A stretch of DNA of 64,000 nucleotides, taken from Prorocentrum cordatum (lineage: Eukaryota > Sar > Dinophyceae > Prorocentrales > Prorocentraceae). A program made the translations under genes and the position numbers. The stretch lies in the NCBI GenBank assembly GCA_963575745.1, contig CAUYUJ010015515.1, positions 192,095-256,094 of the forward strand, read 5' to 3'. Within the stretch, counting starts at the first letter, position 1. Each line of letters opens with the position of its first letter. This document shows positions 13,196-61,411 of the stretch, piece by piece. A model generated the notes under the pieces. That model made no database searches and was not told the DNA's origin. It was given only the letters and a program-made list of their open reading frames with translations.

Positions 13196-13365
13196 GCAAG
13201 AGCGACCCTTCGCCGGAGTGACCTTTGGTGCGGGCCCATTGGGGTCCCCTGGTCGCCGAGTGCGATGCGATGGTAGCGTCTGGGCGTTTGTGTTTGGTCC
13301 CCGCGCGGCCCCCAGAAAGCCGCGCAGCGAAGGTCACTCTTGCCCAGGGTCACTCTTGCGTGTAG
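13196..13365 (+). mobile_element. Introner-like repeat, copy A
   Basis: This 170-bp copy starts GCAAGAGCGACCCTTCGCCG and ends GGGTCACTCTTGCGTGTAG, immediately followed by CCGAAG. Its interior shares GAGTGACC, GGTGCGGGCCCAT, GCGATGCGATGGTAGCG, TGTTTGGTCC and AAAGCCGCGCAGCGAAGGTC in order with copies B-E. The donor is GC rather than GT. Removing it keeps a phase-1 frame open across the junction. Confidence 0.75.
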
Positions 13366-13532
13366 CCGAAGAGGGTGGAAGTGACAGGGGGGCAGGCCTT
13401 CTCAGAGGGCGGCGGAGCTTCTCGGAAGCCCTGCGGCCCTCTAAGGAGCCCTCTGGGGCTTCTGGTAAAGGCTTACGGCAGGTTCGCGTCGTGTCGGCGC
13501 ACCGCGACACCGCCGCGGGCGTTCGAGGTTGA
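13366..13532 (+). CDS. Possible exon after introner A
   Basis: In phase 1 with the preceding exon it reads EEGGSDRGAGLLRGRRSFSE and on to a TGA at 13,530. Part of it overlaps a half copy of the foldback repeat family (GGCCTTCTCAGAGG at about 13,397), so some of this may instead be intronic. Confidence is lower than for the upstream exon. Confidence 0.3.
13390..13480. repeat. Foldback-family fragment
   Basis: GGGGGGCAGGCCTTCTCAG...GCTTCTCGGAAGCCC matches the left half of the foldback elements at 27.7, 28.5 and 30.6 kb. Confidence 0.5.
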
Positions 13533-13654
13533 ACGCCGCCTGTGGCCAAGACGCGGCCAGTATGGAACGATCTGACGACGGGGAAGCCGCCGGTCGTTCA
13601 AGGTTGAACGATCCAGGCGGTGTCAGAAACCAACGCTGGGGTCGTCACGAAACG

Positions 13655-13765
13655 GACCTGTCGCAGAGAGCGTCTCAGAAGGCCGCAGGCCTCCCGAGTC
13701 TTCTGAGGAGGCCCTCCCCGTTGCACTTCCCCCCGGGGCGCGCCGCAGCCCGTGCTCCCGAGGCC
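13655..13765. repeat. Foldback-family fragment
   Basis: GTCTCAGAAGGCC...CTTCTGAGGAGGCCC...GCACTTCCCCCCGGGGCG matches the centre and right arm of the same family. The left outer arm is missing. Confidence 0.55.
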
Positions 13766-14507
13766 CGCCGAGGGCGTGCTCGAAAGCGCCTCCTCGGGAG
13801 GGCGTCGGGGGCATCGGAGCGTGCTGGGCGCGGCTGGCGGCCTCGTGCTCGAGGGGGGCAGGCAGGGGGAGGAGAGGGGCGGAGGAGGTCAAGGATGAGG
13901 AGGTGAAGGCAGCGGAGACGAAGAGGGAGAAGGACTGGGGAAGACGAGAGAGGCAGAGGAGGAGGATGAGGCGGAGGAGGAGGAGGAGGAGGCAGGGTAA
14001 GTGAGGAGGCGTAGAGGGTCAGGGAGCGATGGGGGGGAAGGGGAGGAAGGAGCGGGGAGGAGGGGGCAGAAGAGGGGAAGGTCCGCCTTGCACGGGCACG
14101 TGAGCGCCGAAGACTTCTCCAGCGAGTGCCGAGCGCGCGCCATTTTGAGTCCCAAATCTGGTTAGGGGCATGCCGGGCTGCATGCTTCGAGCCTCAAAGA
14201 GTCGAGAGTTTGCTCGGGCCCCGCCCTGGAGCTCCGCTTCGGTTTGCTGACGGCGACGCCGTCGGCGGCCACGGCGACGGCGGCGGCGGTGGCGCTGGCG
14301 GTGGCGACGGCGACAGCCGAGACGGCGGCGGCGGCGGCGACGGCGAGGACGGCGAGGACGACGACGAGGGCGACGTTGGTCTGACCAGCGACCCCCTCCA
14401 CGCTGAGGGTTCATTGAGTGCGCCCATCTTGTGCATTGTCGCTCACCTCATCGATCTGATCCTGGTGCATCCGTTGCAGACCTCACGCGCGTGGTATCAC
14501 TGTGCAG
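13766..14507. other. GC-rich stretch, GGCGACGGC repeats
   Basis: GAGGAGG-rich sequence at 13,860-14,060 is followed by GGCGACGGCGGCGG units at about 14,245-14,385. No gene frame is supported. The block ends in the acceptor of the next exon. Confidence 0.4.
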
Positions 14508-14625
14508 GTACTTGACATCAATCCCCAGGACACCAGCTTGTATAGGTTGATCTACGGCAACGAGGCCTTCCGCCGATGGGTGACCGATGTCAACAACGAG
14601 GATCCCGATTGCATTTCGTTTAAGT
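14508..14625 (+). CDS. Candidate internal exon
   Basis: After TATCACTGTGCAG| the frame reads VLDINPQDTSLYRLIYGNEA and then FRRWVTDVNNEDPDCISF, with no low complexity. It looks like a piece of a globular domain. The GNEAFRRW element vaguely recalls PAS-type helices, but I do not assign it. The 3' end is approximate, because a clear GT donor is not obvious before the sequence turns AT/TCC-rich. Confidence 0.55.
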
Positions 14626-15438
14626 TGTTGCTTTACCTTCCTAATCATTATGCTCATACATCCTTCTCCCACTCCGCCTCCTCCTGTTCTTCCTCAGCAA
14701 GTCTGGCTTCTCAGCTTCTCCTGCCCTTCCCGACTCTGGCTCCTTCTGCTCTACATCCTCATCATCATCAGTTTCCTCCTCTTCCTCCTGCCCTCCTCCT
14801 CCTCCTCCTCCTGCCCTCCTCCTCGTTTTCCTCTTTTTCCTCATTCTACTCCTCGCCCCGAGAGGTCCCAAAAACCGCCTCAGATGCACCCACACCCAGG
14901 ACGGTCCCAAGAAGATCCTAGGAGAGCCCGAAGGGTTTCAAGAGGCTCCCAGGAGGGCCTGACGACACCCCGACAGACACTCGAAACTGCCACAGAGCTT
15001 CAACGGCCCCACGACAGCCCCAACGGATTATTGTTACAGTTGTCTTAGACGTCCCGTAGAGCTCCTTGAGAACAACCTTAAAACATTATGTGTGATTGTC
15101 TTCAAAACTCGTGGTGTAATGCTCTGCTGACCTCTTACAAGTTTGACCCATACTACGTTTCGGCAGGAAGGGCTCGTTGCAGATGCGGTCGACTAGAACC
15201 GAAGCGAGTGCCAAGCGCGCTCGCGTGGCTCTAATATAGAACATCAAATGCGGAGAAGTCGAAGGGACCTGAGAACACTCCATGTTGTGCCTCGCGGCAC
15301 GGTGGCGGATTCAGCTCAATATGCGAATGTGTGAGTTGGTTACGTTGAGGACATGGTACTGTATTTGCACGCGCTTGATCGGTGCACGCGCAAAGCTCAA
15401 GGGAGCAATGACTGTACAAAAAGGCACTTGATCAGAAG
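14626..15438. other. No supported gene
   Basis: TCC-rich tracts (14,680-14,840), a CTCCGAGG/AGGGCCTGA-rich part to 15,010, then AT-richer unique sequence up to the ORF at 15,439. Confidence 0.4.
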
Positions 15439-15726
15439 ATGGGTAACGCCAGCGGCGCGCGAAGGATCTCTGGGCAGGATGCGGAACTGACTGGCGGAGA
15501 ATACCGCATCAATATACACACTTGTGACTATTCTGTCATTAACGATTTCCGAAGCGATTGGAGAGAATGGCACCACTGGGCTCGTCAGTATAAGCAGCGG
15601 CCTATGTTGCAAGTCATGTTGGGGAGCGTTGACGCGACTACATCAGCCGAAGAATTGGCAGGTGCGTTCGCATGTTCGATAAGATGTGATGCCGTCTGCA
15701 TTGTAATTGCCCGCCCTCTGACATGA
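15439..15726 (+). CDS. Intact 95-residue hypothetical protein
   Basis: ATG to TGA with no internal repeats and ordinary amino-acid composition. It starts MGNASGARRISGQDAELTGG, continues with a mixed aromatic segment (RSDWREWHHWARQYKQRP) and ends with a hydrophobic strand-like tail (CDAVCIVIARPLT). The MGN start recalls N-myristoylated proteins, but the expected Ser/Thr at position 6 is Gly, so acylation is only a possibility. There are no obvious splice sites around it. It could also be an exon of the gene represented at 14,508. Confidence 0.4.
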   Translation: MGNASGARRISGQDAELTGGEYRINIHTCDYSVINDFRSDWREWHHWARQYKQRPMLQVMLGSVDATTSAEELAGAFACSIRCDAVCIVIARPLT

Positions 15727-16186
15727 TGGATCTGTCTTGGCTGACACAGTGAGGCATGACCGTCTTGGAGATGCTCTTTGCCATGGAACTTCCAAGTTGG
15801 GCCAGCACGTGGAGTTTCAGTCGTGTGGTGCTGGGTGGAAGACGACCGCGCAGATTGGCCATACAGTCCCTCGCAGGGGCGTCGCGGCTGCGTCGCGTTG
15901 GCGGATGTCTCGCTAAGCGACCTCTTAGGGCGGGGATCTCCTTCGAGAAATCCCGATCGAGAGGCCGACAGGGACAGCAACCCAGCGGGGCGCTCGTCCT
16001 GACGGGTTCCGCAGATCAGGATGCCGCTGGATTCCGCGGGGCTCCGCAGGGTCCTTCAGGATTCGACAGGGTCCCTCTGGATGCCTCAGGGCGTCTCAGG
16101 GTTCTTCAGGAATCCTCCGGCTTCCCCAGGAATCCTCCGGATTCTTCGAGATTCCTCCTGATTCTGTCGACGCCTCCAGCATCGCC
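15727..16186. other. No supported gene; GGATTC-type minisatellite
   Basis: From about 16,010 to 16,165 short units around CAGGATTC, CTCAGGGTTCTTC and GGAATCCTCCGG alternate. Nothing coding is supported. Confidence 0.45.
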
Positions 16187-16285
16187 TGGAGGGCGGGGAA
16201 GATTTATCTCGCCCGCACCGTCGTTCGGTTGGCGCTCCGCTGAACGGTCCGACCAATAGTCACTCGGAGCCTGACGGTAGTCGGG
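16187..16285 (+). repeat. Dispersed ~95-bp repeat, copy 1
   Basis: It shares GGCGGGGAAG..TT.ATCTCGCCCG, GGCGCTCCGCTGAACG and CGACCAATAGTCACTCG..CCTGACGGTAG with 31,655-31,745 in the same orientation. Confidence 0.65.
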
Positions 16286-16460
16286 AGACGAGAGAGAGAG
16301 AGAGAGGAAAAAAAAAAAAACAACAAAAAAAGAGAGAGAGAGAGAGATGGAGATGATGAGAGAGAGGGAGGATGGAAGAGGAAGAGAAAGAAAGAGAGAG
16401 AGAGAGAGGCGGAGGGCGATACAGAGAGAGCGAGGGGGAGAGGGATCTATCTATCTACAT
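16286..16460. repeat. (GA)n microsatellite
   Basis: GAGAGA runs interrupted by an A-rich stretch at 16,310-16,330. Confidence 0.9.
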
Positions 16461-16519
16461 ATATACTGCCCTTCGGTCCACCCCGCCACTGTGCCTGGGC
16501 TGTGGGTATGAAGCATATT

Positions 16520-17870: not shown

Positions 17871-17917
17871 CCATCACATGTTAAATTGTCGTCCTTGCTC
17901 TGGTTGCGTCTCTGCAG

Positions 17918-27322: not shown

Positions 27323-27663
27323 GTGTCATAATCAGCATCATCATCACCACCACCACCACCACCATCATCATTGCCTCAATGCTGCACCTACTCCCTCGTT
27401 CCTAACCCCATCCCTCCTCCATCCTCCCTCCCTCCATCTATTTTCATCCCCTTCCTATTCCATACTTGGCCATGTTGGTCCAAGCCATGGGCTCAAGCGA
27501 CCACGGGGGCCACGCATTTCAGCTGCCCTCGTGCTCCAGGGGCAACGCATTACAGCTGCCCTCGTGTTTCACTCTATGTTGGCGGCACGAGTTCTTACCA
27601 GCGTCGCGTCTCGCGGGAAGCGTTAAGCTTGGGAAGCACATGAAGCGATTGCTTGCCCTACAT
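27323..27663. other. CAC/CAT tract and a 34-bp tandem pair
   Basis: (CAC)n/(CAT)n lies at 27,335-27,370. At 27,512-27,572 a ~33-bp unit containing CAGCTGCCCTCGTG is repeated twice. No gene is supported. Confidence 0.5.
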
Positions 27664-27863
27664 TCGGCGGCGAGCCCGGGGGGGAAGTGAGAAGGAGCAG
27701 GCCTTCTCAGAACTCAGCGGGGCTTCTCCGAAGCCCCTCGGCCTCCTAAGAAGTTCGCTGCGTCTTCGGACACGGCTCAGAAGAGATGCTCCGAAGGCCG
27801 GAGGCCTTCCGAGCGTTCTGAGAAGGTCCGCTCCCTCTCACTTCCCATTGGGCGCACCGCCGA
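27664..27863. mobile_element. Foldback MITE-like element, copy 1
   Basis: A 200-bp element runs from TCGGCGGCGAGCCC to the inverted GGGCGCACCGCCGA. The inner arms GAAGTGAGAAGGAGC...GGCCTTCTCAGAAC pair with GTTCTGAGAAGGTCCGC...TCTCACTTCCC. The flanking pentanucleotides TACAT and TACAC may be a slightly eroded target duplication. It encodes nothing. Confidence 0.7.
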
Positions 27864-28214
27864 TACACACCCGGACCTCTGGCAGCTCGAGGACAGCGCG
27901 CTCGAGGCTTTGCCTTCTGTTCGGCCTCTGGCCGCTTCCGGGCACCAGGGCCTCGAGCAGACGGCTTGGAATGCAGAAGCAGGCCTTTGGGAAGGGACAG
28001 CTCCAGCGGCCCGCGGGTCGAATAAGACAGAGCCGCCGAATTCCCAGGATGCCCCTGCAGCGATTGCCTGCTACACGGCGGGGGCGTTCCCTAAGGAATG
28101 TGCCCAGGAGGCTTCGGACTCTGGGGGGTCCCTTCTGTACTTGAGGACGGTGATCTCCGTGGCCACTCCACGATTGGGGCTCCACCAGTTCCCAGACCCT
28201 GGACTCCTTAGCCA

Positions 28215-28446
28215 ATGGCCCCTCGTCCACTGCCCTCACCGTGCACGTTCCGCTCCGCCGGCGCGCACGCGGCGACGGTCGCCCACAGGTCGACCCCGAG
28301 CGGCGGCCGCGGCTGCGGCGGGGCCCGAGCGCCACTCGGCACGCCGCCGGCGTCGCAGCGGCATCGCAGCCTCGCGGGAGCCACGGGGGGCCCGCGGGCA
28401 GCTCCGCCGGGCGCGGGGGGCTGCCCCACTCGGGTCGCGGCCACGC
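28215..28446 (+). CDS. Exon 1 of a three-exon gene split by introners
   Basis: An ATG in good context (CCAATGGCC) opens a very GC3-rich frame (MAPRPLPSPCTFRSAGAHAA onward), Ala/Gly/Pro/Arg-rich, for 77 codons plus one base. It ends at the donor of introner B. With the 18-nt exon at 28,786 and exon 3 at 28,950, the pieces join into a 215-residue open frame ending at 29,347. The protein is probably disordered and its function is unknown. Confidence 0.5.
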
Positions 28447-28785
28447 GTGAGGGTGACCATTTGCCGGAGTAGCCTCGGGTGCGAGCCCATCGGGGTCCCC
28501 AGATGCCTCGGCGGCGAGCGAGCGAGGGGGGAAGCGAGAAGGAGAAGGCCTTCTCAGAAGCCCTCGCGCCTTGAGAAGATGTCTGCGTCTTCGGAGAAGG
28601 CTGGGGGGACTTCCGAGACTTCTGAGAAGGCCCGCCCCTTCTCACTTCCCCCTCGGGCTCGCCGTCGGAGGGCTGCATGCGATGCGATAGCAGCGGCTTG
28701 CGCGCTCAAGCTTGGCCTCCCCGCGCCCCCCGAAAGCCGCGCAGCAAAGGTCACCCTTGCCTTGGGGCCACCCTTCTGCGCGCAG
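28447..28785 (+). mobile_element. Introner-like repeat, copy B (interrupted)
   Basis: It starts GTGAGGGTGACCATTTGCCG and ends CTTCTGCGCGCAG|CC. The left half (GAGCCCATCGGGGTCCCC) and right half (GCGATGCGATAGCAGCGGCT, CGCGCTCAAGCTTGG, AAAGCCGCGCAGCAAAGGTC) match the uninterrupted copies A and E. Between them sits a foldback element (28,508-28,669). Without that insert it would be about 177 bp, like its relatives. Confidence 0.75.
28508..28669. mobile_element. Foldback MITE-like element nested in introner B
   Basis: 162 bp, from TCGGCGGCGAGCGAGC to GGGCTCGCCGTCGGA. The arms GGGAAGCGAGAAGGAGAAGG / CTTCTCACTTCCC and CCTTCTCAGAAG / CTTCTGAGAAGG are inverted. It breaks the introner between its GGGGTCCCC and GCGATGCGATAG motifs. 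I could not read a clean target duplication. Confidence 0.7.
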
Positions 28786-28803
28786 CCACCGGAGCTCGGC
28801 CGC
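28786..28803 (+). CDS. 18-nt microexon between two introners
   Basis: The sequence between the CAG of introner B and the GCAAGAG of introner C is 18 nt, six codons' worth. It keeps phase 1, so it links the exon-1 frame to the exon-3 frame without a stop. It reads as Pro-Thr-Gly-Ala-Arg-Pro with one base from each side. Confidence 0.5.
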
Positions 28804-28949
28804 GCGCAAGAGTGGCCCTTCGCTTCGGTGCAGGCCCGCAGGGCTCCCCCCAACACTGGGCCAGCGTGCTCGGATTTGGGCCACGCGCGGCCCCCTGAGG
28901 CCGCCGCGCACCACAGGCCACTCCTGCCCACGGTCACCCCTGCGTGCAG
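28804..28949 (+). mobile_element. Introner-like repeat, copy C
   Basis: 146 bp. It starts GCAAGAGTGGCCCTTCGCTT (GC donor) and ends CGGTCACCCCTGCGTGCAG|CC. It retains GGTGCAGGCCC, GGATTTGGGCCACGCGCGGC and CCGCGCACCACAGGCCACTC in family order. It lies only 18 bp downstream of copy B in the same orientation. Confidence 0.75.
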
Positions 28950-29347
28950 CCGGGACTCTCCGAGGGCAGCGACCGCCTGCCACACGGAGGGCCACCCCGG
29001 GGCCTCAAGGCTGGGCTCCGCGCCTGCTGAGGCCCGAGGCCTGGCACGCGGGGCCCCCGCGCCAGGCGGGCGAGGCGCGCCTCCGAGCCCGTGCGAGCCA
29101 TCGGCAGGCCATCGTGCGGCGCAGCACGTTGGGGCGGCCGCAGGGCGAGCTGGCACGCGCGCGGCGGCGGGCGTGGCGCCCCGCGGCGCCACGCGCAAGG
29201 CCGCCCGCGCCTGGCAGCAGTCGCAGTGAGACGCGCCCAGGCCAGGATCCAGGCGCACCGCCATCCCCTCTGCCCCAGCCGCCTCGGCACGCCCGTGGAC
29301 CGCCCGCGCGCCCGCCAGCCCGAGCTGCCGACGGAGGAAGGGCTTGA
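28950..29347 (+). CDS. Exon 3 of the introner-split gene
   Basis: In phase 1 the frame reads PGTLRGQRPPATRRATPG and later RQAGEARLRARASHRQAI, then an Arg/Ala/Pro-rich tail to TGA 29,345. The GARLRARASHRQAIVRR part is helical and basic. Third codon positions are almost all G or C in this frame, and it is the one produced by splicing introners B and C. No family is recognised. Confidence 0.5.
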
Positions 29348-29935: not shown

Positions 29936-30602
29936 CGCTCTTGGCCAGTTTTTGCGCTCCCCGGCTTCTGGACAAGTAACGCGACCCTGCCCAGAGAGCG
30001 CCTGGTAGCGCCCAAGAGCGCCTGGAATTCGGGGAGGTGGGCCCCTTTTTTGTTGTTTGTTCGTTTGTTTCTTTTTTAGGCAGTACGCTTACACGATTCC
30101 TACTCAACACAGAAGACGCTAAAGGACCAGAGGATATTTTCACTACATGCCAAGGCACGGTGGCAAACCTTCGAGGATCAACAAGGAGCGTCATGGCAGG
30201 CACTTTCGGGCGCTGCGGGGAAGCGTCATGGCAGGCACCTCTGGGCGCTCCGAGCAATCGTCCTGGCCAGCACCGTCAGGCACTCTGAAGAAGCGTCCTG
30301 GCGGATACTTCCGGGCGCCCCAAGACCAAGCACAAAGCACACCAGTTCTGCGGAAGCGAGGTGGATGGGTCGCAAGACATCGGCTTCCCTCTCAATGGAA
30401 GCATCGGCGCTGGTCCTCGATGCTTGCCCGGGACGACGCAGCTGCCGCCAGGCCCGCGAAGCAGAGGCGCGGCACGGCACGCAAGAGCTGGCGGCCGCCG
30501 AGGAGGACGCGCTCTCGCAGCGCGAAGCGAGCAGGGGAAGATCGCGGGCTGCGGTCATGTCGAGAAAGGCCCGCGGAGCTCGAGCCGGGGGGAGGCCAGG
30601 AT
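29936..30602. repeat. Unassigned sequence with a ~45-bp minisatellite
   Basis: At 30,185-30,335 four degenerate ~45-bp units carry GCGTCATGGCAGGCAC...GGGCGC. The flanks are unassigned. Plus frames between 30,360 and 30,600 are open but unsupported. Confidence 0.5.
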
Positions 30603-30800
30603 TCGGCGGCGAGCCCGGGGGGAAAGTGGGAAGGGGCGGGCCGTCTCAGAAGGTTCGGAAGTCCTGCGGCCTTCTGGGAGGTTTTCCGAGCCTTCCCCGA
30701 AGACACCGGAGCTTGTCCAGAAGGCTGGAGCGTTTCCGAGAAGCCCCGCTGCCTTCTGAGAAGGCCGTCTCTTTCTCACCTGCCCCTCGCTCGCCGCCGA
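30603..30800. mobile_element. Foldback MITE-like element, copy 3
   Basis: 198 bp from TCGGCGGCGAGCCCGG to CTCGCTCGCCGCCGA, flanked on both sides by AGGAT (30,598-30,602 and 30,801-30,805), a 5-bp target duplication. Inner inverted arms GGCGGGCCGTCTCAGAAGG / CCTTCTGAGAAGGCCGTC are present. No coding capacity. Confidence 0.8.
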
Positions 30801-30943
30801 AGGATGAGCTCCGTGGCTGGCGTGGCCTCTTCGGGCCAGCGCGTGCAGCGTCGAAGAGGCTGCAGGGCCAGGCCGGCGTCGACGATTCCTTGCGGGCGAT
30901 GCCGCCGCCAGACACTTTGCCATGACCAGTGCTGGCAACACAG

Positions 30944-37812: not shown

Positions 37813-39190
37813 ATGCTTCCCAAGCTTGTGGCACAGACCAGTCTCTCCGCAGCGACTGAGGTAGCGGTGGGCTGGGCGCGTCGACTCAGTGGCATGTTCA
37901 TCGAGGGCGGCCAGCTTGCGTCCGCCGCCGAGCAGCTGGGCGGGATCCGCGCCTCTCTCTGTATCGTGTTCGCTGTGGGCGCTCTGGCGGGCTGCTGCTG
38001 CTCCGCTTGTGCACTGGCAGGAGGCATCGTGCACCATGGCGTTCGTATTGCAGGCTGGGATGCGAGTGCTCGTGCAGTGGCGCGCGATCGAGGAGTTCCA
38101 TGCAAGGATGCTGCTGCGCGAGTCCAACGGCGACGAGTACGACAGAGAGCTCGCCTGGGTTTCAAGTCGCGAGTCCTACGAGTCAGGTGTGGATGGCCGC
38201 TGCCCCCGATTCAGACGTGCACCTTCACGAGTTGGAGGTGCCACCTTTCCACGCGCTGGCCCCATGCGATCAGACGGGCCGGCCTCTGCGGCGCGAACGA
38301 GTTGGCGGGGAACGACCTCGCCGAGCTCGGCCCCACTACGGCCCCCAGTGGTCTCCGACGCCCCGCGAGTTCACAGAACTCCGCGAGGGTCGCGGCGTGA
38401 GACCGTCAGCGGGGGAGATGGTGGACGTGGACCAGCCGGCGCGGGCGACGCCGCCGGGCCTGCTGGATGGGACAGCGACTCCTTCTGAGGGGCTGCTGCG
38501 AGGCTCAGGGCGGCTCGAAGCTGGGACTGGGCGGCGGTGGCTAATCGTAGCGAGCGACGACGACAGCGAGGTGAATGGGCTGGCCGATTTCGACCAGCGG
38601 GAAGTGCTGCCTGCTGAAGGCTGCAACCGACAAGCAGGCCGAGATCTCGATGGATGCGCGCTTGATGCCGATCTTGCACGAGCTCAACGGCAAGAGGCGG
38701 CGCGTCTTCAAGGACGCGGCGCGGGCTATGACGGAGACAGCGTGGCCTGGGTGGCCTGCGAAGGGGCCGCGCACCGCCTTGCGGCACGTCAGCCTTTCGC
38801 GGAGCAGGACGCACATCCGCGCGCCCGCCACGCCAAGTGGCGCGCGGAGTGCGGCCCGGCCTCGAGCGACATGGCCGCGTCGGACCACGAGCTGGCGACG
38901 CTTGCGCTGGAGCTGGGGGCGAACTTCGACCGGCTTAACCCGACGGAGCCGGCGCTGGTGGAGCTCTTGGTCCGGCGCGCCCAGCTGGCGGAGTGGCGTC
39001 GTCGAGAGAGGCCGCTGAAGAGCCGCGGCGACGAGTACTTGCAGGATGAGTATCTGTGCACGGGGGCCTCGGGGACGCGGGGGGCCCTTATGGCGCGCCC
39101 GCTGCTGGTCGACCACGCGCCGGCGGAGCTGCACCAAGAGGCGACGCTAACGAAGCAGAAGCAGAAGCCCCGCGAAGAGCGAATGCCGTC
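37813..39190 (+). pseudogene. Retroelement N-terminal (membrane and gag-like) region
   Basis: Frame +1 from ATG 37,813 contains a hydrophobic span (ASLCIVFAVGALAGCCCS). Frame +2 from 38,036 gives FVLQAGMRVLVQWRAIEEFH and YDRELAWVSSRESYE. Frame 0 from about 38,180 gives DVHLHELEVPPFHALAP. Frame +1 near 38,620-38,780 gives DARLMPILHELNGKRRRVF and KGPRTALR. Frame 0 then resumes with HAKWRAECG...DHELATLALELG and TGASGTRGALMARP...KPREERMPSRG. Each piece is biased to GC3, and the pieces follow one another with small frame changes, as expected for one decayed long ORF. Confidence 0.7.
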
Positions 39191-39199
39191 GCGCGGGCG

Positions 39200-40898
39200 G
39201 GCCCCGCCGGCAGCGGCGGCGGGATCACGAAGGCGTTGCGTGACAAGGTGGCAGCTCAGGCCGCGGAGATCAGCAAGCTCCAGACGAAGGTCAAAGGCCC
39301 CCCAGGCGGCAAGAATGCTGGGGGAGGACTCGGAGGCCAGGTCTCCACCTTCTCAGGGGCGGCAGCTTATGCAGAGCTGCGCCCGCGCTTGCCAGGATTT
39401 GCAGAAGACACCGTGCGCCGCGCCTCCTACTCCGAGGGGTTGGTCTCCCTGCCGACGACGGGCGGACAGTGCGCCAGCGCCGATTGCTTGTCGGGTCGGG
39501 CCCGCGAACTACGGGCAGGCTGGCAGAAGCATTTTCTTCGCGATGATAGGCCTGCGGACGGCCCTCGTAGTCGCCCTTTTTTCAGATCCTGAACTAGCGC
39601 AGCGCAAGCAAATTTACTTGCGATTCGCGAGGCAGCTGTTAGACCGAGGCCTCATCGACCTGGGCGGGCGCGCCGAGGCGACGGTGGGCATCTTCTTCGC
39701 TTTCAAGAGTGACAAGCGGACCCCCCACACGATTGCAGACACGCGGGTGGCCAACGCTCGATTCTGAAAACCGGCGCATGCGCAGTTGCCGACTGCGGGG
39801 GCGTGGGGCAGTTTGCCCGCGCCAGACGGCAAGTCCTTGCATCTGGCCCAAATGGACTTGGACAACGCATTCTACAGGATCACCACGCCGCCAGGGCCGC
39901 GCGACCACTTCGCGCCGCCTGCCGTGGACCTCCACACCCTTCGGGCCGAGAGGCCTGACCTGGTTGCCTATCTGCATGCCAGGCGCACGGCGTCGCCGCG
40001 GCTGGCGGCCCTCGCGACGGGCTGGAGCTGGAGCATTCTTTTCTGCCAGCAGATTGCGGAGACCCAGGTGATCAGGAGCGGGGCGGCACGGGAGCGGCTG
40101 GCGCGCGATCGGCACCCCGCGCCCTACCAGGAGCAGGGGCCAGCCGCGTCGGCGCACGTGGACGGGGCCGCAGTCATCGGGCTCGACCACGCCGAGACGG
40201 CGGAGACGGCCCAGCGGGTGCGGGACACCCTCGATGCCGCGGGGCCGCAGTGCAAGGGGCTCGAGGTCCCGTCCGCGGAGGCGACGTTCACGGGGCTGGC
40301 GTTCGACGAGGCGAGGGCCCGCGTTGGGCTCAGCCGCCGACGCATGTGGCGCATCTGCCCGAGCACGCTGTACGTTGCCGACCGCGGGTCCGCCTCGGGC
40401 GACGAGCTGCGGGCGCTCCTCGGCCACTTCGCGTTGGGCGCGCTGGTGCGGAGGGAGCTCCTGTCGATCTTCTCCGCGGCCTACCGCTTCGCGACGCGGG
40501 CCGGTGGGCGGCGGCGGCGCCTGTGGAGCGCCGCGGTGGCGGGGCCTCGCGCGGCCGCCGCGCTCATCGCGTTCGGCCGCGTGGGCTGCCGCCGCCGCCC
40601 AGACCCCGCGGCGCGGGCAACCGACGCCTGCGGCGCGACGGCCTGCGACGCGGGCGGGCTCGGCGCCGCGAGCCGCGCTTGGGATCTGGGCGACGTTGCC
40701 AGGGCCAGTGCGCAGGCAGAGCGGCGGCGGCACCGCGCGTCGGAGGCAATTTCGGCACGGGCGCGCGCCTTGGGGCTATCCGAGCACCCAGCCGCCCTTG
40801 GAGGATCGAGCATCCAGAAAAGCCAGAGCGATAGACAGCGAGTCCAGTCGAGTTCAGTTCTCCATTCCTCTATCGAGGCATCCGCGGCATGCCTCTGA
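39200..40898 (+). pseudogene. Retroelement reverse transcriptase
   Basis: A coiled segment (TKALRDKVAAQAAEISKLQT) leads into the fingers (LIDLGGRAEATVGIFFAFKS, then ADTRVANARF). A TGA at 39,765-39,767 interrupts the frame, which then continues unchanged with LHLAQMDLDNAFYRITTPPG (catalytic Asp of the palm), GWSWSILFCQ and the second catalytic box, here HVDGAAVIG (40,155-40,166). It ends in a thumb/connection-like LRALLGHFALGALVRREL. The second Asp of the usual pair is Gly. In related elements, from memory, it is often Asn, so the loss may not by itself be decisive. Frame 0 closes at 40,896. Confidence 0.75.
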
Positions 40899-40974
40899 GT
40901 TCGACCAGTCGTTCGGGGTTATGTGTCATGGTTCCTTGGGTCGGTCTCGCTCGACCAAATCACTTCGAGTCACG

Positions 40975-41210
40975 TCGGCCACATCAAGATGTGGCAGCTC
41001 AGGGTCAGGGGTAGGTTCAGCCGAGCAGAGAGCATCATCCGTCTGAAGGGGCACTGGGCCGCCATCGGTGTACGACGTCAACTTCGGGCTGTCTCTCGAC
41101 GCGGGCGCAAGCTGCTCGCGTTGCGCGACAACCTGGGCCTGGTTCTGGCCCAGGGGAAGGGGCGGGCGACCAGCCCGATGGTGACGCGTCAAGCATCCTG
41201 GGGGACCTGT
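40975..41210 (+). pseudogene. Retroelement RNase H-like region
   Basis: The frame reads RFSRAESIIRLKGHWAAIG, RRQLRAVSRRGRKLLAL and RDNLGLVLAQGKGRA. The spacing of an early strand, a helix beginning LKG (Glu expected) and a strand ending in RDN fits the RNase H fold that follows RT in this family. The catalytic Glu position appears to be Lys. Confidence 0.5.
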
Positions 41211-41266
41211 CGGCGACCGTTCGGCGGACCCCTTCGGAGCTGAACCCAGCTGATCGCCCTTCCCGC

Positions 41267-42395
41267 ATGCCTGGCGCCTTGGCTCGAGACCTTCGGGCAG
41301 ATCCTCGGAGCGCCGGCTTCGACCCCCCTGGGCCGCCGCGGTGCGACGCCGAGGCTGTGCTGCGCACGGCGGTCGACGAGGCGCTGCTGGGTGGCGAGCT
41401 CGACTGGCTGGGCCGGCCGGCGGCTGGCGCGGCCGGGCTGGGCGACGCCTTCTGGGCGACCCGCTGCCAGGCGGCGCCGCGCGGCTGCACGCTGAAGCGG
41501 CGGCGCCAACGGCGGCGGAGCGGCGGACGCGGCTTCCGAGGGCAGCAGCAGTTCGAGTTCCAGTGACTACGGCGACGGCAACGAGACCGCCGAGCGCGTC
41601 AACCCCTGCAGCGACGGGCCGACGCCTGGCGCGCGCGCCGACACAGTCGCCGGGCGAGCGGATGTCGGGCCCCCAGGCGAGCGCGGCCGAGAGGATCGGC
41701 CGCCGCGCAGCCCGCCGCCAGGCCTCAGCCGCGGTCGCGGCCCCAGCGAGGCCGCCAGGCGGCTTGCGCGAGACGGGCCACCCGGAAAGCAGGCGCGCGA
41801 CCGAGAAGAGCCGGGACACGCTGTGCCGCGAGGTCGGGGTCTTCCGAGCGGAGCGCCAGGAGAACCGCCAGAGCGCGAGCTCCAGGGCGGCGCTCGACGA
41901 CACGCTCGCGGGGTACCTGGGCACCCTCTACTTCGACGGCTACAACTGCGAGAGGGGCGACAAGCCCCTGTCGGGGCTGGCCTTCGAAGAGCCGAAGTTC
42001 AGGCGCGGCGGGGAGGAGGGCCCTGCTCGAGCCCGAGCTGCCCTCCAGGGCTTCCGCCGCAGGGTATCCAGGCAGATGAGGTTGCCACTGACTCGGCCGG
42101 AGCTGGCTGCACTGCGCCGGGGTCGCGGCCCTGGGGCGGGACTTCGGGATCAGCCTGGCGCTCGCGTGGGACAGCGGGCTGTGATTGCCGAGCGACATCA
42201 CGCGGCACCTGCCGAGCCCGGGAAGGGGCCGGCTCACGCGCGGGTTTGCCGCGAGGCGGTGGAGGCACAGATCGCAGCAATGCTGAGCGAGCGCCCGGCG
42301 CTGCTGCAGCCGCCCAACCTGGCCGCAACTGCGCGCTGAAGGCCGGTCGGTCCCGTCGCTTGGGCGACACACTGGTGCGCAGCAGAGAGTTGTCA
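41267..42395 (+). pseudogene. Retroelement recombinase-like region
   Basis: Frame +2 first gives EAVLRTAVDEALLGGELDWL. Frame +1 gives LDDTLAGYLGTLYFDGYNCE, GDKPLSGLAFEEPKFRRGG and ARAALQGFRRRVSRQMRLPL. This resembles the core-binding half of tyrosine-recombinase-type proteins in such elements (inference from memory). The catalytic half is poorly preserved: GISLALAWDSG is followed by an in-frame stop, and I could not place the R-H-R-Y residues. Confidence 0.45.
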
Positions 42396-42404
42396 TAAGC
42401 CGCC

Positions 42405-43158
42405 GTGCGGGCTGGGCTGAGCGACGCCATGCGGCGCGAGGAGTTGGGCAAGGCCCCAGTTTGCTACCTTGACCTCTTTTCAGGCGCGGGCGGCATCGCC
42501 CGCGCGCTCAGGAGATTGCGCAGCGTCAGCCTCGAGATGGATCTTCCGCACTCTGAGTTTTTCGATATTGCCTCGAAGGTGGTTGGCCAGACCATCGCGG
42601 GTTGGATCTCGAGTCGCCTCGTCGTAGGCGTTTTGTTCTGCGTTCCTGTGCTCGACTTACTCGCAAGCCTCGCACAATTTCTATCGATGCCCTGCTAGCA
42701 TGCACGGCCACTCCCATCTCGAAGGCGAAGCGCTGGAGCGCCTCCTGGTGGGAAATGCGACCCGTGCCTGTGTGTATCATGGTGTCCCAATGATATGTGA
42801 GAACCCTGTAAGCAGCTACGCCTGGCAGGAGCCCGTCATGCAGCATCTGTCCCAACATCGGCGGTGTCGCGATGCCGTGTTCGATATGTGCCAATTCGGA
42901 AGAGCTTGGAGAAAGCCCACGCGTCTGCGCGCGTGGAATTGTGTGCCTCCGCCCGCAGCTCTGTGCGCACGTTGCTCTAGCTCGCGCGGCCCCTGCCCCC
43001 AGACCGGTCGACCCCACATCCCTCTCCAAGGTCGAGGGCCGCACGGGGTGCGGCGGACCCGCTTGGCGGAGACATCTCCCAGCAAGGCAGCCAGATCGCC
43101 CGATGGCTGCATCAGAGCGCTGAAAACATCAGAGCTCAGAGAATTTGGAGACTGGTAG
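42405..43158 (+). pseudogene. C5-cytosine-methyltransferase-like domain
   Basis: Frame 0 reads PVCYLDLFSGAGGIARALRR, matching motif I (DLFSGAGG, SAM binding) of C5-methyltransferases, then FFDIASKVVGQTIAGWISS and VLFCVP. Near 42,645 the frame slips by one base, and the next frame begins with the expected Pro-Cys (CSTYSQASHNFY, motif IV). It continues with GVPMICENPVSSYAW (motif VI ENP-type, 42,799-42,807), FDMCQFGRAWRKPTRL and CPQTGRPHIPLQGRGPHG, and ends at TAG 43,156. One indel separates the SAM-binding and catalytic halves, so it is inactive as it stands. It sits immediately 3' of the recombinase-like region. Confidence 0.75.
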
Positions 43159-48338: not shown

Positions 48339-49240
48339 GCCCGAGAAGGGGAAGCTGAAGTTTGACGATAATGAGATGGAGGAGGAAGGGGGAGGAGGAG
48401 GACGACGACGACGAGGAGGGAAGGGAGCAGGCTGTGCCGAAGACCCAGGCGGCGCACGGGGCGGCGATGCAGCGGCCGCGCGCGCCTCTTGCCAGGCGAA
48501 ACGCCCGAGCAGCCGCCGCCGCCGTGCGGGACGGGGACGGACGGCGACATGCCAGGGCGAAAGAAGCGGCCTCCAGGCACTCGAGGGGTGGAAGGTCGAG
48601 GGATCGAAGATCGGGGGATCGGGGGATCCTGGGATCCAGGGATCGAGGATCCTCCCTGCTCCTCCGCTCGGCGGCCTGCCTCCTGCCCTCCCTCCCGGCC
48701 TCGCCGCCTTGCCTCGGCCTCCCGCGGCCCCTGCCCCGTGCCCCCGTGCCTCCTCCCCCCTCCCTGCACCTCTGGGCTGCGATACTCATAAATTATCACA
48801 CACACACACACACCCCGGCTGTCGAGGTCATGCACCTCGCTTTCGTGGAAGGCCGATCCGATCCGATCCCTGCACCTCCCGGCGACAGAGGCGCCGGCCG
48901 GCGCACGATCCGGCGAGAAGGCGGCAGCGGGAGGCGATGGCTCCCAGCGTTGGAGCCACGCCGGCCACAGCGCCACGGGGCGGCGACGGGGCAGCGACGG
49001 GCGGGCCTCGGGCGAGCACGCGGCAGAGCCGGCCAGCGCAAGGGGCAGCGACGGGCACTGGGCGAGGGCACGGACATGCCAGCCAGCGCGCGAGTCGATT
49101 GGGGGAAAGCCCAGGAATCCCAGCCAATGATTTGCAACCCGAGTGAGAACCTTTTTGAGTACAAGCATGGCTTCGGGGAACAAGGCATCGGCGCGAAGCA
49201 CTTTTGGACAACGTGTGGCACAAGTTACGGCGCAATCGTG
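48339..49240. other. GC-rich, no supported gene; (CA)n at 48,797
   Basis: GGAGGAGGACGACGACG repeats at 48,375-48,420, GATCGGGGGATCC units at 48,600-48,645, and a short (CA)n. Frames are open on both strands and undecided. Confidence 0.4.
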
Positions 49241-51193: not shown

Positions 51194-51894
51194 GTGAGCC
51201 TGGGCCTTGCGAGCGCGAGCGGCGGCGGCGGCTGCTCGGCAAGGAGCTTCAGACCTGGGCGTTTTTTCATAACGGGCGTTTTCGCTCGGTTTTGGGTCCT
51301 GGGACCATCACAGCTCGATGCGGCTCGAAAAATGTTAAAGAAGGATTGGGTCTGGGGCGCTGGTCGTGAGTTTTCGCGATGTCGCAATTTTCGCGCTCCG
51401 TCGGATCTCGGGGGATGGGGTCGAACGAGCCATGGCCTCAGCATGGACTTGTGTCGTCGCGTTCGGCTTCTGGGGCCCTCGCCGGGCTATGGGACGGTCC
51501 AGGATGGAAAACTGCTCCTGGGTGATGGATCGGGATTTCGGGGGACCGTAATGAAAAAACTCGATCAAGACGTCGGATGTCCAGGAAAGGAGGGATCGGG
51601 AAAAGGACGGGCTTCCGAACTCTGCTGCACGCAGCTGCTCTGGGCCCCGCCGCCCATGCGCTTCCCTCGATATGTCGGCGCCTCTGGCGGGAGGCGCCAG
51701 GGAAACTGGCTGCGTGAGCTGGTTCGCTCCCGACCCCACCTTCGCTCAGAGGAAGGAAAGGTACCCTGACACCCTTCCCTCGTTTTCCCTCTCTTGGACC
51801 TCCTCGGAGGCCCTCGTCGCCAACGCTGTATTCGCCTCGAAATTCTGGTCAGAACGCACCCCAGGAGAGGGCATGAGTACATGCTGGTTTCCCT
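51194..51894. repeat. Dispersed repeats in a probable intron
   Basis: 51,265-51,400 (CATAACGGGCGTTTTCGCTC...GGGTCCTGGGACCATCACAG...GCTCGAAAAATG) is an inverted match to 53,565-53,715. 51,466-51,560 is a reverse-orientation member of the GAGGTCTCGACC / GTTTTTTCA family. Confidence 0.65.
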
Positions 51895-53370: not shown

Positions 53371-53409
53371 CTTCTGGAGCCGTGGATCTCAAGGAAAGAT
53401 GGACTGCAC
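53371..53409 (+). CDS. Short exon end before introner D
   Basis: Sequence between the TCC tract and the GTAAGAG donor. In phase 0 it reads LLEPWISRKDGLH. The 5' boundary lies somewhere in or before the TCC tract and is not determined. Confidence 0.3.
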
Positions 53410-53740
53410 GTAAGAGTGATACCTTCGCCAGACTTACCTCTGCTGCGGGCTTATTGGGATCCCCCCGATCGCGGAGCGCGATGCGTTAGCGGCTGCTTGC
53501 GCGCTTTGATTTGGCCACCTTGCGCCCCGTGAGTCTGCGCACAAAAGGTGCCGACGTTGCGAAAAATAACAAAATATCGCCAAAAAACACGACCAGAACC
53601 CTGGACGTCTTTCTGCGTCATTTTTCGAGCTGGATCGATCTGTGAGGGTCCTAGGACCCGAAACCCTGTGAAAACCCCCGTTGTGCAAAAATTGCAACGC
53701 CTTGAGGGTCCTGCCTATATAGGGTCACTCCTGCGAACAG
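53410..53740 (+). mobile_element. Introner-like repeat, copy D (interrupted)
   Basis: It starts CAC|GTAAGAGTGATACCTTCGCC and ends AGGGTCACTCCTGCGAACAG|CC. Up to about 53,550 it follows the family (GCTGCGGGCTTATTGGGATC, GCGCGATGCGTTAGCGGCTG, TTGCGCGCTTTGATTTGG). The family resumes at 53,721. Between them is a different, inverted dispersed repeat (partner 51,265-51,400). Without it the copy would be about 170-180 bp. Confidence 0.75.
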
Positions 53741-53884
53741 CCGACGAGCTCCAGGGCCCGCGCCCGGCTCCAAAAGGAGCACGAGGCGTGCGCGCGGCAG
53801 GCCCCCGCGCAGCTCGTACCGGACCCCGCGCCAGGGGCCGACGGCGACCTGGGCACCACAAAGAGCCACAAAGATCGGGGAAAC
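53741..53884 (+). CDS. 144-nt coiled-coil-like exon
   Basis: Bounded by introner D's CAG and a donor at GGGAAAC|GTAAGA. Exactly 48 codons in phase 0 with almost all third positions G or C: SSRARARLQKEHEACARQAP, then DPAPGADGDLGTTKSHKDRG. The start is heptad-like (RARLQKEHEACARQ). It fits the coiled-coil exons at 59.1, 59.6, 60.6 and 60.8 kb. Another frame is open through this region (53,548-54,297) but is less GC3-biased. Confidence 0.5.
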
Positions 53885-54518: not shown

Positions 54519-55260
<742 letters not shown>

Positions 55261-56560: not shown

Positions 56561-56712
56561 CAGGGCTCGAGCTGAACGGTGTTTGGGCGATTCCGCGGAC
56601 CGTTGTCGTGTCGATTTCGCTTTGCAGCCAAGGCGGACGGAAGACAAAACAAGGGAAAGCGAGAACGAAAGGAAAACGAAAAACACTGTTTAGCTCGAGC
56701 CCTGGACTCGAC
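56553..56712. mobile_element. hAT-like MITE with 8-bp target duplication
   Basis: The element spans 56,561-56,704 (144 bp), flanked by GACTCGAC at 56,553-56,560 and 56,705-56,712. The termini are inverted: CAGGGCTCGAGCTGAACGG at the left, and its complement ending CTCGAGCCCTG at the right, matching at 22 of 24 positions. An 8-bp duplication and a CAGGG terminus are typical of hAT elements. No transposase. Confidence 0.85.
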
Positions 56713-56717
56713 TACAC

Positions 56718-56892
56718 GTAAGAGTGATCCTCTGCCGGAGTGACCGCTGGTGCGGGGCCCATGGGGGTCTCCCGATCGCCGAACGCGATGCGATAGTAGC
56801 TTCGTCTTGCGCGCTTGTGTTTGGTCCACCCGTGGCCCACAAAGAGACGCGCACCAAAGGTCATCCTTACCCAGGGTCACTCTTGCGTGTAG
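56718..56892 (+). mobile_element. Introner-like repeat, copy E
   Basis: 175 bp, uninterrupted. It starts CAC|GTAAGAGTGATCCTCTGCCG and ends CAGGGTCACTCTTGCGTGTAG|CCGAAGG. It gives the clearest alignment to copy A (GTGCGGGGCCCATGGGGGTC, GCGATGCGATAGTAGC, CGCGCTTGTGTTTGGTCCAC, ACGCGCACCAAAGGTCATCC). Confidence 0.8.
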
Positions 56893-57005
56893 CCGAAGGA
56901 CACGCTGCGGTTCCTGATGCGCGAGCTCTGCCATTGCATCAGGCTGCCTGCGGCGCGTCCCGCCGTCGTGCTGTCGCGGCTCTCCTGGCGGCGACCCACG
57001 GGGGG
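56893..57005 (+). CDS. Candidate exon after introner E
   Basis: In phase 0 it reads PKDTLRFLMRELCHCIRLPA and ARPAVVLSRLSWRRPTGG with nearly all G/C third positions. The 3' end is approximate. The same frame stays open to 57,255 but becomes less biased. Confidence 0.45.
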
Positions 57006-58524: not shown

Positions 58525-58700
58525 GAGGAGGAGGAGGAGGAGGAGGAGGAGGAGGAGGAGGAGGAGGAGGAGGAGGAGGAGGGGGAGGGGGGGGAGGGGG
58601 AGGGGGAGGGGGAGGGGGAGAGGAGGAGGAAGAAGAAGAAAGGAGGAGGAAGAAGAAAGGAGGAGCAGAAGGAGGAGAGGGAGGAGGAACAGGGTGATTG
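58525..58700. repeat. (GGA)n/(GGGGGA)n tract
   Basis: GGA triplets pass into GGGGGAGGG hexamers, then GAAGAA/GGA. Confidence 0.95.
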
Positions 58701-59084
58701 AGAGGTGGAGGGCTTCTTGGAAGCCTCTTGGGGCCCGCTGGCGCTTCTCGGCGTCCTCCTGGGCGCTGTCGGGTACCTCCTCCGGAGGGAACGTCGGGCA
58801 ATCTTGGTTCCATTCCTAGGCCGTCCTGGGAGCCCTGCAAGAGCCTTGGCGAGCGCCAGGGGGGCTGCTGGGCTGCCCTCGGGGGAGGGGGGCGGCGCGT
58901 GCACCCCAGCGTGGCGAGAGGCGGGGAGCCCTGAAGATTCACAGAAGCCCTGCCAGGCAGGGCTTCGCATTCCACCACGCCTCCGCGCGAACGGGGGGGC
59001 ACGGTGGCGGATATTCGAGAGCTACAGGCCTGGATCCGACGTGATGCCCCTCACGCCCTTCTACGTCCTGGCACTGGGTTCGAG
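58701..59084. other. Probable intron, no certain exon
   Basis: A CCTCTTGGGGCC-type piece at 58,705-58,770 and unique sequence. DIRELQAWIRR (near 59,005-59,040, another frame) could be a small exon, but boundaries are not clear. Confidence 0.35.
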
Positions 59085-59237
59085 GGCCGAGCTCGACCAG
59101 GTGGCAGAGCAGCGCCGACAGGCCGCCGACGAGCGCGAGAGCCTGACCCGTCGCATCCGCCAGCTGCAGTCGGAGGCGAACGAACTGCGGGGCCTCCTGG
59201 ACGCGGAGAGAGCAAGGATCGAAAAATCAAAAACGGC
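59085..59237 (+). CDS. Coiled-coil exon
   Basis: From the acceptor-like GGGTTCGAG| one base precedes a frame with strong heptad character: AELDQVAEQRRQAADERESL, TRRIRQLQSEANELRGLL, DAERARIEKSKT. GC3 is high. It ends two bases into a codon at the GTAAAC of a TIR-bearing intron-like element. Splicing that element out continues as AFALFSKNRHDEKRS to a stop near 59,449, or the true donor is the GCAAGG at about 59,212. Confidence 0.6.
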
Positions 59238-59403
59238 GTAAACATAAACTGTCGACGGTCCGCGTGGATTTCTTCGAGATTTGCGCTGGACCCCCTTGGC
59301 GGCGCCTCCAGCGCCGCCCTTGGCGCGCTCCGCGCACCAGAGAGGGGGTCCAGCGCAGATCCAAGAAACCCGCGTGGACCGTCGAAAGTTTATGTTTATG
59401 CAG
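59238..59403 (+). mobile_element. TIR-bearing introner-like element
   Basis: 166 bp. The left end is GTAAACATAAACTGTCGACG and the right end GTCGAAAGTTTATGTTTATGCAG. The ~60-bp termini are inverted repeats (GACGGTCC.CG..GGTTTCTT, TGCGCTGGACCCCCT). The inverted repeat supplies both a GTAAAC donor and a GCAG acceptor. Removing it leaves a continuous frame (KSKT-A-FALF) for a short distance. It lies in a coiled-coil exon. Confidence 0.75.
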
Positions 59404-59597
59404 TTTCGCTCTCTTCTCAAAGAACCGCCATGACGAAAAGAGGTCCTGAAGAAGAGGGTATTCCGGTCTTTCGCCGTTTTTGGTGTCCCGGGACCCTCCA
59501 CGGGCCCAATGGGCCGACAAAGAGAGGCTCGGGCTGAAGAACTAGTCTTCTGGGGACAGACCCAGGCATAGAGCCCGCTTCCCTCAGGGGTCCCCAG
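59404..59597. repeat. Dispersed repeat in probable intron
   Basis: TTTCGCCGTTTTTGGTGTCC, GGGACCCTCCACGGGCCC and GGCTCGGGCTGAAGAACTAG are related to the 51-55-kb GAGGTCT family. Acceptor-like CTTCCCTCAG and TCCCCAG follow. Confidence 0.5.
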
Positions 59598-59715
59598 CCC
59601 CCACTTGCGGAAGGAGCCAAGACGAGCGGACGATGCTCCAGAGCTTCGAGGACGTTGTGGCCGAGCGGGACGCGCTGCGGGCCGCGCTGCAGCAGCTGCA
59701 GTCTGGCGAGGAGTT
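59598..59715 (+). CDS. Coiled-coil exon
   Basis: After GGTCCCCAG| two bases precede PTCGRSQDERTMLQSFED and VVAERDALRAALQQLQSGE. The second part is a clear amphipathic helix with high GC3. The donor is not canonical (perhaps GAG|GAGTTT), so the end is approximate. Confidence 0.5.
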
Positions 59716-60519
59716 TCCTCTCTGGGGGTCCCAAGCGCAATTCGTGGTTGGTGCCCTGGGGCGCTCTGAGGCTCGACAGCTTGGCGCGGGGTTGTCGCCT
59801 AAGTGCCGGGGGAACGAGACTCGGCGCCGCTAGCAGTCGGTGATGGCCTTCATCTTAGGACGGGGACGGCGTGGGCATGGTGTCAGTTGCGGTGCGAGCG
59901 CGCCGATTCTTCTCTTTCTCCTGCCCCCTCGGATCTGCCATGTCTTTCTTGCTTCACTGCCTCTCGTGCTCTGCAGCGTGCCCGTGCCGCTGCTGCCACC
60001 CGTCGGGTTTGCTGGCCGTCGGCAGGGGGCGGCGCGGAACGCAGTCAGGTTTTGGGGGGGCGGGGCCGCGCACCCGCCCCAATGGCGGCATGGCAGGTGG
60101 AAGGGCGGCCGGGGTGGAGACTGGAAGTGCGACCCAGAGCCGCAGCGTGAACCCCAAGAGGGGACCCAGGAGGTTGCCCGGCAATGCCGCCTGCCATGCC
60201 GCCAGCGGGGTGGGCCTGCGGCTCCGCCAGTGAGCCGGCCTCGTGAGAGGGCGAACTTTGTCCGCGCCCGTTCGGCCCTTCTCATCTCTCGCGGTGCCCG
60301 CCGTCTCTGGCCCTCCCCAGTGTGTCGCCCTTGCCACCCCGCGACGAAGGGCCTGGCGACCGCCTGCGGGCATGATATGTTCATGCGGTGGGATTACGCA
60401 ACTGTCGACCGCTGGGCGCGAGTGCGCGGCTGATTCTTTCACATACAGGGCTGGCCAGCGCGCTTGCCCAATTCGCACGGGGCCGGCGCGCGAGGGCACT
60501 TCAGCGCGCGACGCACGGA
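59716..60519. other. Probable intron, no certain exon
   Basis: GC-rich unique sequence. Frames are open on both strands between 59,830 and 60,430, without recognised domain or convincing splice pairs. Confidence 0.35.
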
Positions 60520-60635
60520 CACGACAGAGAATAGTGGTCGAAATTCCTGGTATCCGAGTTGGAAGCTCCAGAGATGAGGAGTTCAGGCTGCAGGAGATCA
60601 GCAAGCTGATCACGGAGGTGTCCACATTGAAGGAG
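60520..60635 (+). CDS. Coiled-coil exon
   Basis: The frame reads IVVEIPGIRVGSSRDEEF and RLQEISKLITEVSTLKE, ending in phase 0 at GAG|GCAGGC (a GC donor). The last 20 residues are a heptad-like helix. The 5' boundary is uncertain, with candidate acceptors at GACAGAG| and GCTCCAG|. It joins in phase to 60,785. Confidence 0.45.
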
Positions 60636-60784
60636 GCAGGCCGGCCACAACGTGGGGAGCTGTGGTCCTTCCCCCACCCTTGGGGGGCCCATCGGCTTCA
60701 GCACCCCAGAGGTGGTCGACACGAGGGCCCCCCCCCCGGGTGTGAAGAGCACGGTTCCCCACTGCTGTGTTGCCAGCCGGGGAG

Positions 60785-61205
60785 GCGAACCAGGAGGCGC
60801 TCCGCGACCTCGACGACGCCCGCTGCGAGAGCGCGGCGCTGCGCGCGCAGCTCAAAGACCAGGGCCGGCGCGCCGACGCGTCCGAGGGGCACGCGGCCGA
60901 CTTGCAGGCGGTGCTGGCGAGGCTCTCGGACGAGCCCGCCCAGACGCGCCCGGCCGCCGCGGCGCCGCGCGTCGTCCCCCGCACCATGGCGGAGGCGGAC
61001 CCCGCGCTGCTGCCCGAGAGCCGCGCGCTGCTGGGCGGCAACGGCCGGCCCCGGCAGCCGCCGAGCCTGGCCGGGTCCGACGCGGCCGGCGCCCCGCCGC
61101 CGCCGCAGCCGCAGGAGGAGGCCGCGGCTTGGGCGGCCCTTGCGGACGGGCGCCCCGTGCTGAGGCTGAAGGGTGGCGACGGCAGCTGGCAGGCCTCGGC
61201 CGCAC
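60785..61205 (+). CDS. Coiled-coil exon ending at introner F
   Basis: From CCGGGGAG| the phase-0 frame reads ANQEALRDLDDARCESAALR, AQLKDQGRRADASEGHAADL, QAVLARLSDEP (coiled coil), then a Pro/Ala linker and EEAAAWAALADGRPVLRL plus KGGDGSWQASAA. The last part could be a small folded end domain. It stops one base into a codon at CGCAC|GTGTAG. GC3 is very high. The opposite strand is also open, as expected for such composition, but the helix heptads are in this frame. Confidence 0.55.
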
Positions 61206-61411
61206 GTGTAGGAAGTGGCCATTCGCTGGTGTGGCTTTCGGGTGCGGGCCCTCTTTGGGTGGGGTCCGACGTCGGTGGTGCCTCGCCGATACAGCGGCGA
61301 TGTAGCGCGATCCCCGCCCAACCTGCCCCGCACGCATGGGTTGGGTCCCCCCGCGGCCGCCCACAGCCGCGCACCAAAGGCCACACCGCTGCCAAGGGCC
61401 ACCGTTCACAG
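61206..61411 (+). mobile_element. Introner-like repeat, copy F (divergent)
   Basis: 206 bp. It starts GTGTAGGAAGTGGCC and ends GGGCCACCGTTCACAG. It retains GGTGCGGGCCCTCTTTGGGT, GGGTTGGGTCCCCCCGCGGC and CAGCCGCGCACCAAAGGCCA in family order. The palindromic-family word GCCGATACAGCGGCGATG sits where other copies have GATCGCCG...GCGATGCG. Confidence 0.6.

Follow-up and report, generated by a model that had tools for sequence, protein, structure and literature searches.

The window analysed here, a stretch of 64,000 nucleotides (64 kb) from contig CAUYUJ010015515.1 of the dinoflagellate Prorocentrum cordatum, contains six copies of a dispersed repeat family, several members of a second inverted-repeat family and part of one annotated gene, P0001 (Table 1). 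The six copies are named below by position (13196, 28447, 28806, 53410, 56718 and 61206). A preliminary description of this DNA, made from its letters and open reading frames, had proposed them as introners, i.e. as introns that each bring their own donor and acceptor. A profile built from 28 genomic copies, of which a single one lies in the window, finds each of the six at the place described (E<=1.2e-13). All lie on the plus strand, as had been noted (two-sided chance for six of six on one strand, 0.03), and the significant minus-strand matches of the profile coincide with the same six copies and reflect their inverted-repeat ends. Each copy has a GY dinucleotide near its left end and an AG near its right end, and the GC donors claimed for two copies were found in 13196 and 28806. 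To this extent the description holds: a dispersed repeat family that looks mobile and carries built-in splice-like sequences at its ends is present in a dinoflagellate. The role proposed for it is not supported: we consider it likely (probability about 0.75) that this family of about 185 bp, with terminal inverted repeats (TIRs) and 5-bp target-site duplications (TSDs), moves as a non-autonomous cut-and-paste DNA transposon, i.e. a miniature inverted-repeat transposable element (MITE), and it is predicted not to make clean introns.

Anatomy and abundance of the repeat family

The genome searched comprises 4.13 Gb in 21,875 contigs, with a GC content of 59.8% of non-N bases in 20 random stretches; the available part of the genome report for P. 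cordatum gives 4.15 Gb and 59.7% GC for the published assembly (PMC10666404). Copy 56718 as a query gave 2,972 first-look candidates; the 40 of these that were scored all align to it at 85-100%. When copy 61206 was the query, 40 matches were scored, and 39 were partial. Thirty loci were extracted. After exclusion of L010, L017 and the second hit in L024, whose flanks repeat those of another hit, 28 distinct genomic copies remained, among which L001 is copy 56718 and the only member from the window.

In these 28 copies the family is about 185 bp long and is bounded by TIRs of about 22 bp, with 19 of 22 end positions pairing in the consensus. The left terminus reads TCGACTA(G/C)ACGYAAGAGTGACC and the right terminus, inverted, GGTCACTCTTGCGTGTAGYCGA. 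These true ends lie 10 bp before the 'donor' and 4 bp past the 'acceptor' at which the boundaries had originally been drawn. Directly outside them are 5-bp TSDs, which are perfect in 12 of the 28 copies and have a mean identity of 0.786 as compared with 0.262 for mismatched loci; among the lengths from 2 to 10 that were compared, 5 alone stands out. As RNA, copy 56718 is predicted to fold into a single long hairpin (-100 kcal/mol, z -7.4).

Exact matches to the 28-base left end number 1,270 in the genome (636 forward, 634 reverse) and those to the 34-base right end 969 (465 and 504 by strand), counts that leave out diverged copies and refer to assembly strands rather than gene strands. The reversed controls gave no match for either end. 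The family is not a chance pattern, since 1,270 exact left ends stand against none for the reversed control. The window holds six copies as compared with one in 20 random 10-kb stretches (180 kb without N, five contigs), but this excess (P 2e-6 with the point estimate of the rate and 0.016 with the upper 95% rate) is given little weight because the window was picked for its copies. No match to the left end was found in a scan of viral contigs, and Rfam returned nothing at gathering scores. None of the literature titles and abstracts searched describes the family, which may sit in repeat libraries or supplements.

Splice-like ends and the products of splicing

The motif CAC|GYAAGAG lies in or beside the left inverted repeat, and the right end is its complement followed by TAG. 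The splice-like motifs being part of, or adjacent to, the inverted repeat, both strands of every copy have one end resembling a donor and one resembling an acceptor. Among the 28 genomic copies, GY is present in 27 and AG in all, and the base following AG is C or T in every case. By comparison, 79.7% of P. cordatum introns are given AG|G acceptors in the portion of the genome report at hand, where GC is the commonest donor (51.4%) and GA accounts for 23.8% (PMC10666404).

If a copy were spliced from the GYAAGAG donor to the terminal AG, the transcript would be 19 nt longer in either orientation (5 from the duplication, 10 from the left and 4 from the right end). As 19 is not a multiple of three, the reading frame would be shifted. 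According to the accessible text of a survey of introners, most families keep the length of the mRNA, and the example of lengthening given there adds 12 bp (PMC9860276). Since built-in GY...AG splicing would leave these 19 extra bases in the mRNA, a clean new intron is likely to arise from the family rarely, if ever.

Only one annotated gene is known to be touched by a copy. P0001 (305 aa, 'partial'), a predicted protein labelled Prorocentrum cordatum, is the sole protein to match an exon of the window, and the last of its exons to lie there terminates within copy 61206, in the left inverted repeat. The acceptors of P0001 at the chosen exon boundaries are AG|G. If the next exon starts with G like the others, the donor of the last exon is C|GTGTAG, the same donor that had been assigned to the copy; the alternative, CGT|GTAGG, lies two bases downstream. 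P0001 continues with NYHASSSAV..., which differs from what follows the acceptor of the copy at 61411, so that this acceptor is unused in the gene model. Beyond the window, the next 2.9 kb consist of N. The model thus supports at most a donor lent by copy 61206.

Two further observations concern this gene. In the frame that follows copy 61206, positions 61509-61592 form a degenerate look-alike of the C-terminal tail of P0001 (61% identity, with a stop), which suggests that a duplicated 3' gene end may lie nearby. Intron 1 of P0001 contains, at 59231-59406, a third palindromic repeat family, which recurs in L013, L002, L029, L004, L006 and L033.

Flanking sequence and empty sites

Each copy had been described as flanked by GC3-rich, coding-like sequence, whereas a known (annotated) exon was found only on the upstream side of 61206. 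Across 33 copies, 3 of 66 adjacent 150-bp flanks have GC3-GC2>=0.3 in an open frame, as compared with 31 of 198 control stretches situated 600-1200 bp away. When junctions were spliced as proposed, on both strands, none of 66 was coding-like; among 224 controls, 10, 11 and 7 were so at 90, 120 and 150 nt, respectively. Open frames alone are as common at the junctions as in controls, or slightly commoner (42/66 vs 130/224 at 120 nt). A protein search with longer flank pieces of 28447, 28949, 53410 and 56718, one frame each, matched no other protein; its internal control was recovered, and only proteins of about 285-908 aa qualify in it. A search with 26-aa flank pieces found no match and likewise missed its internal control.

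The surroundings of the family are rich in other repeats, another interspersed repeat reaching within about 12 bp of 17 of 31 copies. When the joined flanks were compared with about 0.36 Mb of sequence, spanning element-free counterparts were found for 5 of 31 copies (L002, L005, L008, L020 and L025). For two of these the empty junction is free of gaps, namely for L008 (in L050 and L033) and for L005 (in the window and in L020).

The six window copies are best regarded as separate insertions, because both their ages (8-33% from the consensus) and their flanks differ. They are also not the uniform element first assumed, since 28447 and 53410 hold secondary insertions, that of 28447 coming from another inverted-repeat family; part of the insertion in 53410 (53576-53691) resembles 51262-51380 reversed. 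No clear target duplication was seen at the four older copies (28447, 28806, 53410 and 61206). Copy 13196 was itself probably inserted into a member of the second inverted-repeat family, judging from its joined flanks, which match 27661-27767 at 76% over 108 bases (E 3.9e-15); the match covers 20 nt on the left side, just under the strict cut for an empty site.

The second inverted-repeat family, characterized by long GAAGGCCTTCTC-type arms, is represented in the window at 27661-27864, 30601-30803 and about 13166-13746, besides the nested member listed in Table 1. Stretches related to it were seen in random loci such as L041, L038, L044, L048 and L043.

Table 1. Coordinates of the repeat copies and of the P0001 exons in the window
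Feature	Position	Strand	Remarks
Copy 1 (13196)	13186..13369	+	10.3% from consensus; perfect duplication AGAGG/AGAGG
Copy 2 (28447)	28437..28789	+	25% diverged; interrupted by second inverted-repeat element
Second inverted-repeat family member, nested in copy 2	28508..28667		Matches 27661-27864 and 30601-30803
Copy 3 (28806)	28796..28953	+	26% diverged; GC donor-like end
Copy 4 (53410)	53400..53744	+	31% diverged; carries secondary insertion
Copy 5 (56718)	56708..56896	+	Youngest in window, 8% from consensus; duplication TGGAC/AGGAC
P0001 exon	59044..59211	+	Protein match
P0001 exon	59614..59712	+	Boundary ambiguous by a few bases; picked by GC/GT donor, AG|G
P0001 exon	60579..60635	+	Boundary ambiguous by a few bases; picked by GC/GT donor, AG|G
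Last P0001 exon in window	60785..61205/61207	+	Ends inside left inverted repeat of copy 61206
Copy 6 (61206)	61196..61415	+	33% diverged; left end coincides with annotated exon end

Orientation of neighbouring copies

The places listed for the exact ends (100 of the 1,270 left ends and 100 of the 969 right ends) were merged into 195 distinct copies. Among these listed places, 21 of 24 adjacent pairs on the same contig are co-oriented (permutation P 0.0002): 5 of 5 less than 20 kb apart, 10 of 10 at 20-200 kb and 6 of 9 beyond. The co-orientation is real in the counts. According to the preliminary description, the introner reading would be refuted if most genomic copies lay in intergenic DNA in both orientations without donor/acceptor ends; here the left ends divide almost evenly between assembly strands, but neighbouring copies share a direction. 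A similar tendency is seen in pairs of other repeats, both in the window (12/16, two of them from the MITE-type family itself) and in the 20 random stretches (22/26), many of these pairs being tandem or simple repeats. The causes could include unidirectional gene blocks combined with a preference for the sense orientation, tandem duplication and the direction of replication. Locus L024 carries two copies in opposite orientation (660-844 and 1497-1681) with near-identical flanks, the result of either an inverted duplication or an assembly artefact.

Nature of the family and alternative explanations

The family combines inverted ends, a fixed 5-bp duplication, element-free counterparts and a high copy number, all of which are features of MITEs. 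Its movement would depend on a transposase supplied in trans, and a copy that lands in transcribed DNA may occasionally lend a splice site while not itself serving as an intron, a role that the P0001 model suggests for copy 61206. Several results weigh against this reading. Co-orientation of neighbours is unexpected for a plain MITE, and the P0001 model sets an exon end at the donor of copy 61206 or 2 nt away from it. Some other choices of splice site would preserve the frame: a GA donor further in adds 27 nt, and a minus-strand GC donor (TCG|GCTACA) paired with the terminal AG adds 12 nt, or four codons. In our judgement both fit the usual donor less well, although GC and GA donors are common in P. 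cordatum. All four window copies that are 25-33% diverged retain GY and AG, which decay alone need not preserve. The coding test is of moderate power, as it recognized, at 120 nt, one true junction of P0001 out of three. Finally, spanning counterparts were likewise obtained for 14 of the 168 control deletions, mostly at duplicated or tandem loci; in the control-deletion alignments displayed, every row is gapped near the junction.

The original proposal, in which every copy is now or was formerly a complete intron supplied with both splice sites of its own, appears very improbable. The GY...AG ends of all six window copies and of nearly all genomic copies do favour such introners, TIR- and TSD-bearing introners are known in dinoflagellates, and one introner family is reported to lengthen the mRNA by 12 bp, as far as the accessible sections of the survey go (PMC9860276). 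However, the 19-nt residue, the AG|C/T context of the acceptor, the mostly non-coding and repeat-rich flanks and the unused acceptor in the sole gene model touching a copy all argue against intron creation, and the status of the family as introners is not supported, two tested features of introners being missed. Another proposal is that of a splice-tolerant MITE with a sense bias: sense copies would be spliced or ignored and antisense copies purged, and the element, part of the way to an introner, would extend introns and provide splice sites. The pairs listed above, in particular the uniform ones at 20-200 kb, are consistent with it, as are the placement of all six window copies on the same strand as P0001, the only gene known there, the retention of GY...AG in the old copies and the annotated exon end at 61206. 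The available part of one report also describes dinoflagellate genes as mostly unidirectional (PMC11453091). Still, tandem duplication could yield the same co-orientation, and the tendency is shared by other repeat pairs; we therefore regard this proposal as unlikely.

For the co-orientation alone, tandem segmental duplication of blocks with one copy each, instead of survival dependent on orientation, is a possible but tentative explanation. The members of some pairs lie near each other (0.6 kb apart on C429 and 4.2 kb on C228), and flanks are common to L010 and L012 and to L017 and L023. On the other hand, the window copies are separate insertions by age and flanks, and the listed pairs at 20-200 kb agree without exception. 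In its most far-reaching form, which we consider doubtful, the sense-biased alternative would have transcription direction sort the copies of a MITE whose TIRs encode splice sites: over unidirectional gene blocks of 100 kb a single orientation would survive, sense copies able to be spliced would last and grow old, and a small number of them, 61206 for example, would turn into exon ends. The family would then represent a living stage between transposon and introner.

The family resembles MITEs in being short, with no need for a long coding frame, and in its TIRs, fixed-length duplications, many copies, empty counterparts and nesting; it differs from them in that its ends read as a good donor (GYAAGAG) and acceptor (TAG) and in that its neighbours are co-oriented. 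The introners of Symbiodinium microadriaticum, likewise from a dinoflagellate, share the TIRs and short target duplications, but in the accessible account their duplications are of 4 bp and provide the 5' splice site (PMC9860276). The family described here has 5-bp duplications and a donor situated 10 bp within the element, and its splicing would lengthen the mRNA by 19 nt. The introners of Aureococcus similarly carry both splice sites and leave residual bases; the figure concerned shows an addition of 12 bp, i.e. of whole codons, in contrast to the 19 expected here (PMC9860276, Fig. 2F). The introner elements described for P. cordatum (PMC10666404) and for Amoebophrya (PMC7789003) are defined inside annotated introns; a member of the present family lying at the ends of an intron would fit the pattern reported for P. 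cordatum, but none of the present copies was seen to be such an intron.

Splice-like ends can mimic an introner even though the true ends of the element set the splice sites out of register, and such ends are a trap for pattern-based counts of introners in dinoflagellates. If the co-orientation holds against controls, both the filtering of transposons by transcription direction in dinoflagellate gene arrays and a route from transposon to introner become testable.

Other features of the window

A search of ten candidate exons against Pfam gave nothing over the curated cut-offs, and the outcome was no different for the open frames at 38575-42641 described below. ARAGORN reports a single tRNA-Asp-like gene on the minus strand (48888-48974, anticodon atc), which is unusual and perhaps spurious. 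A series of GC3-rich open frames extends along the plus strand at 38575-42641, and these we take to resemble a retroelement.

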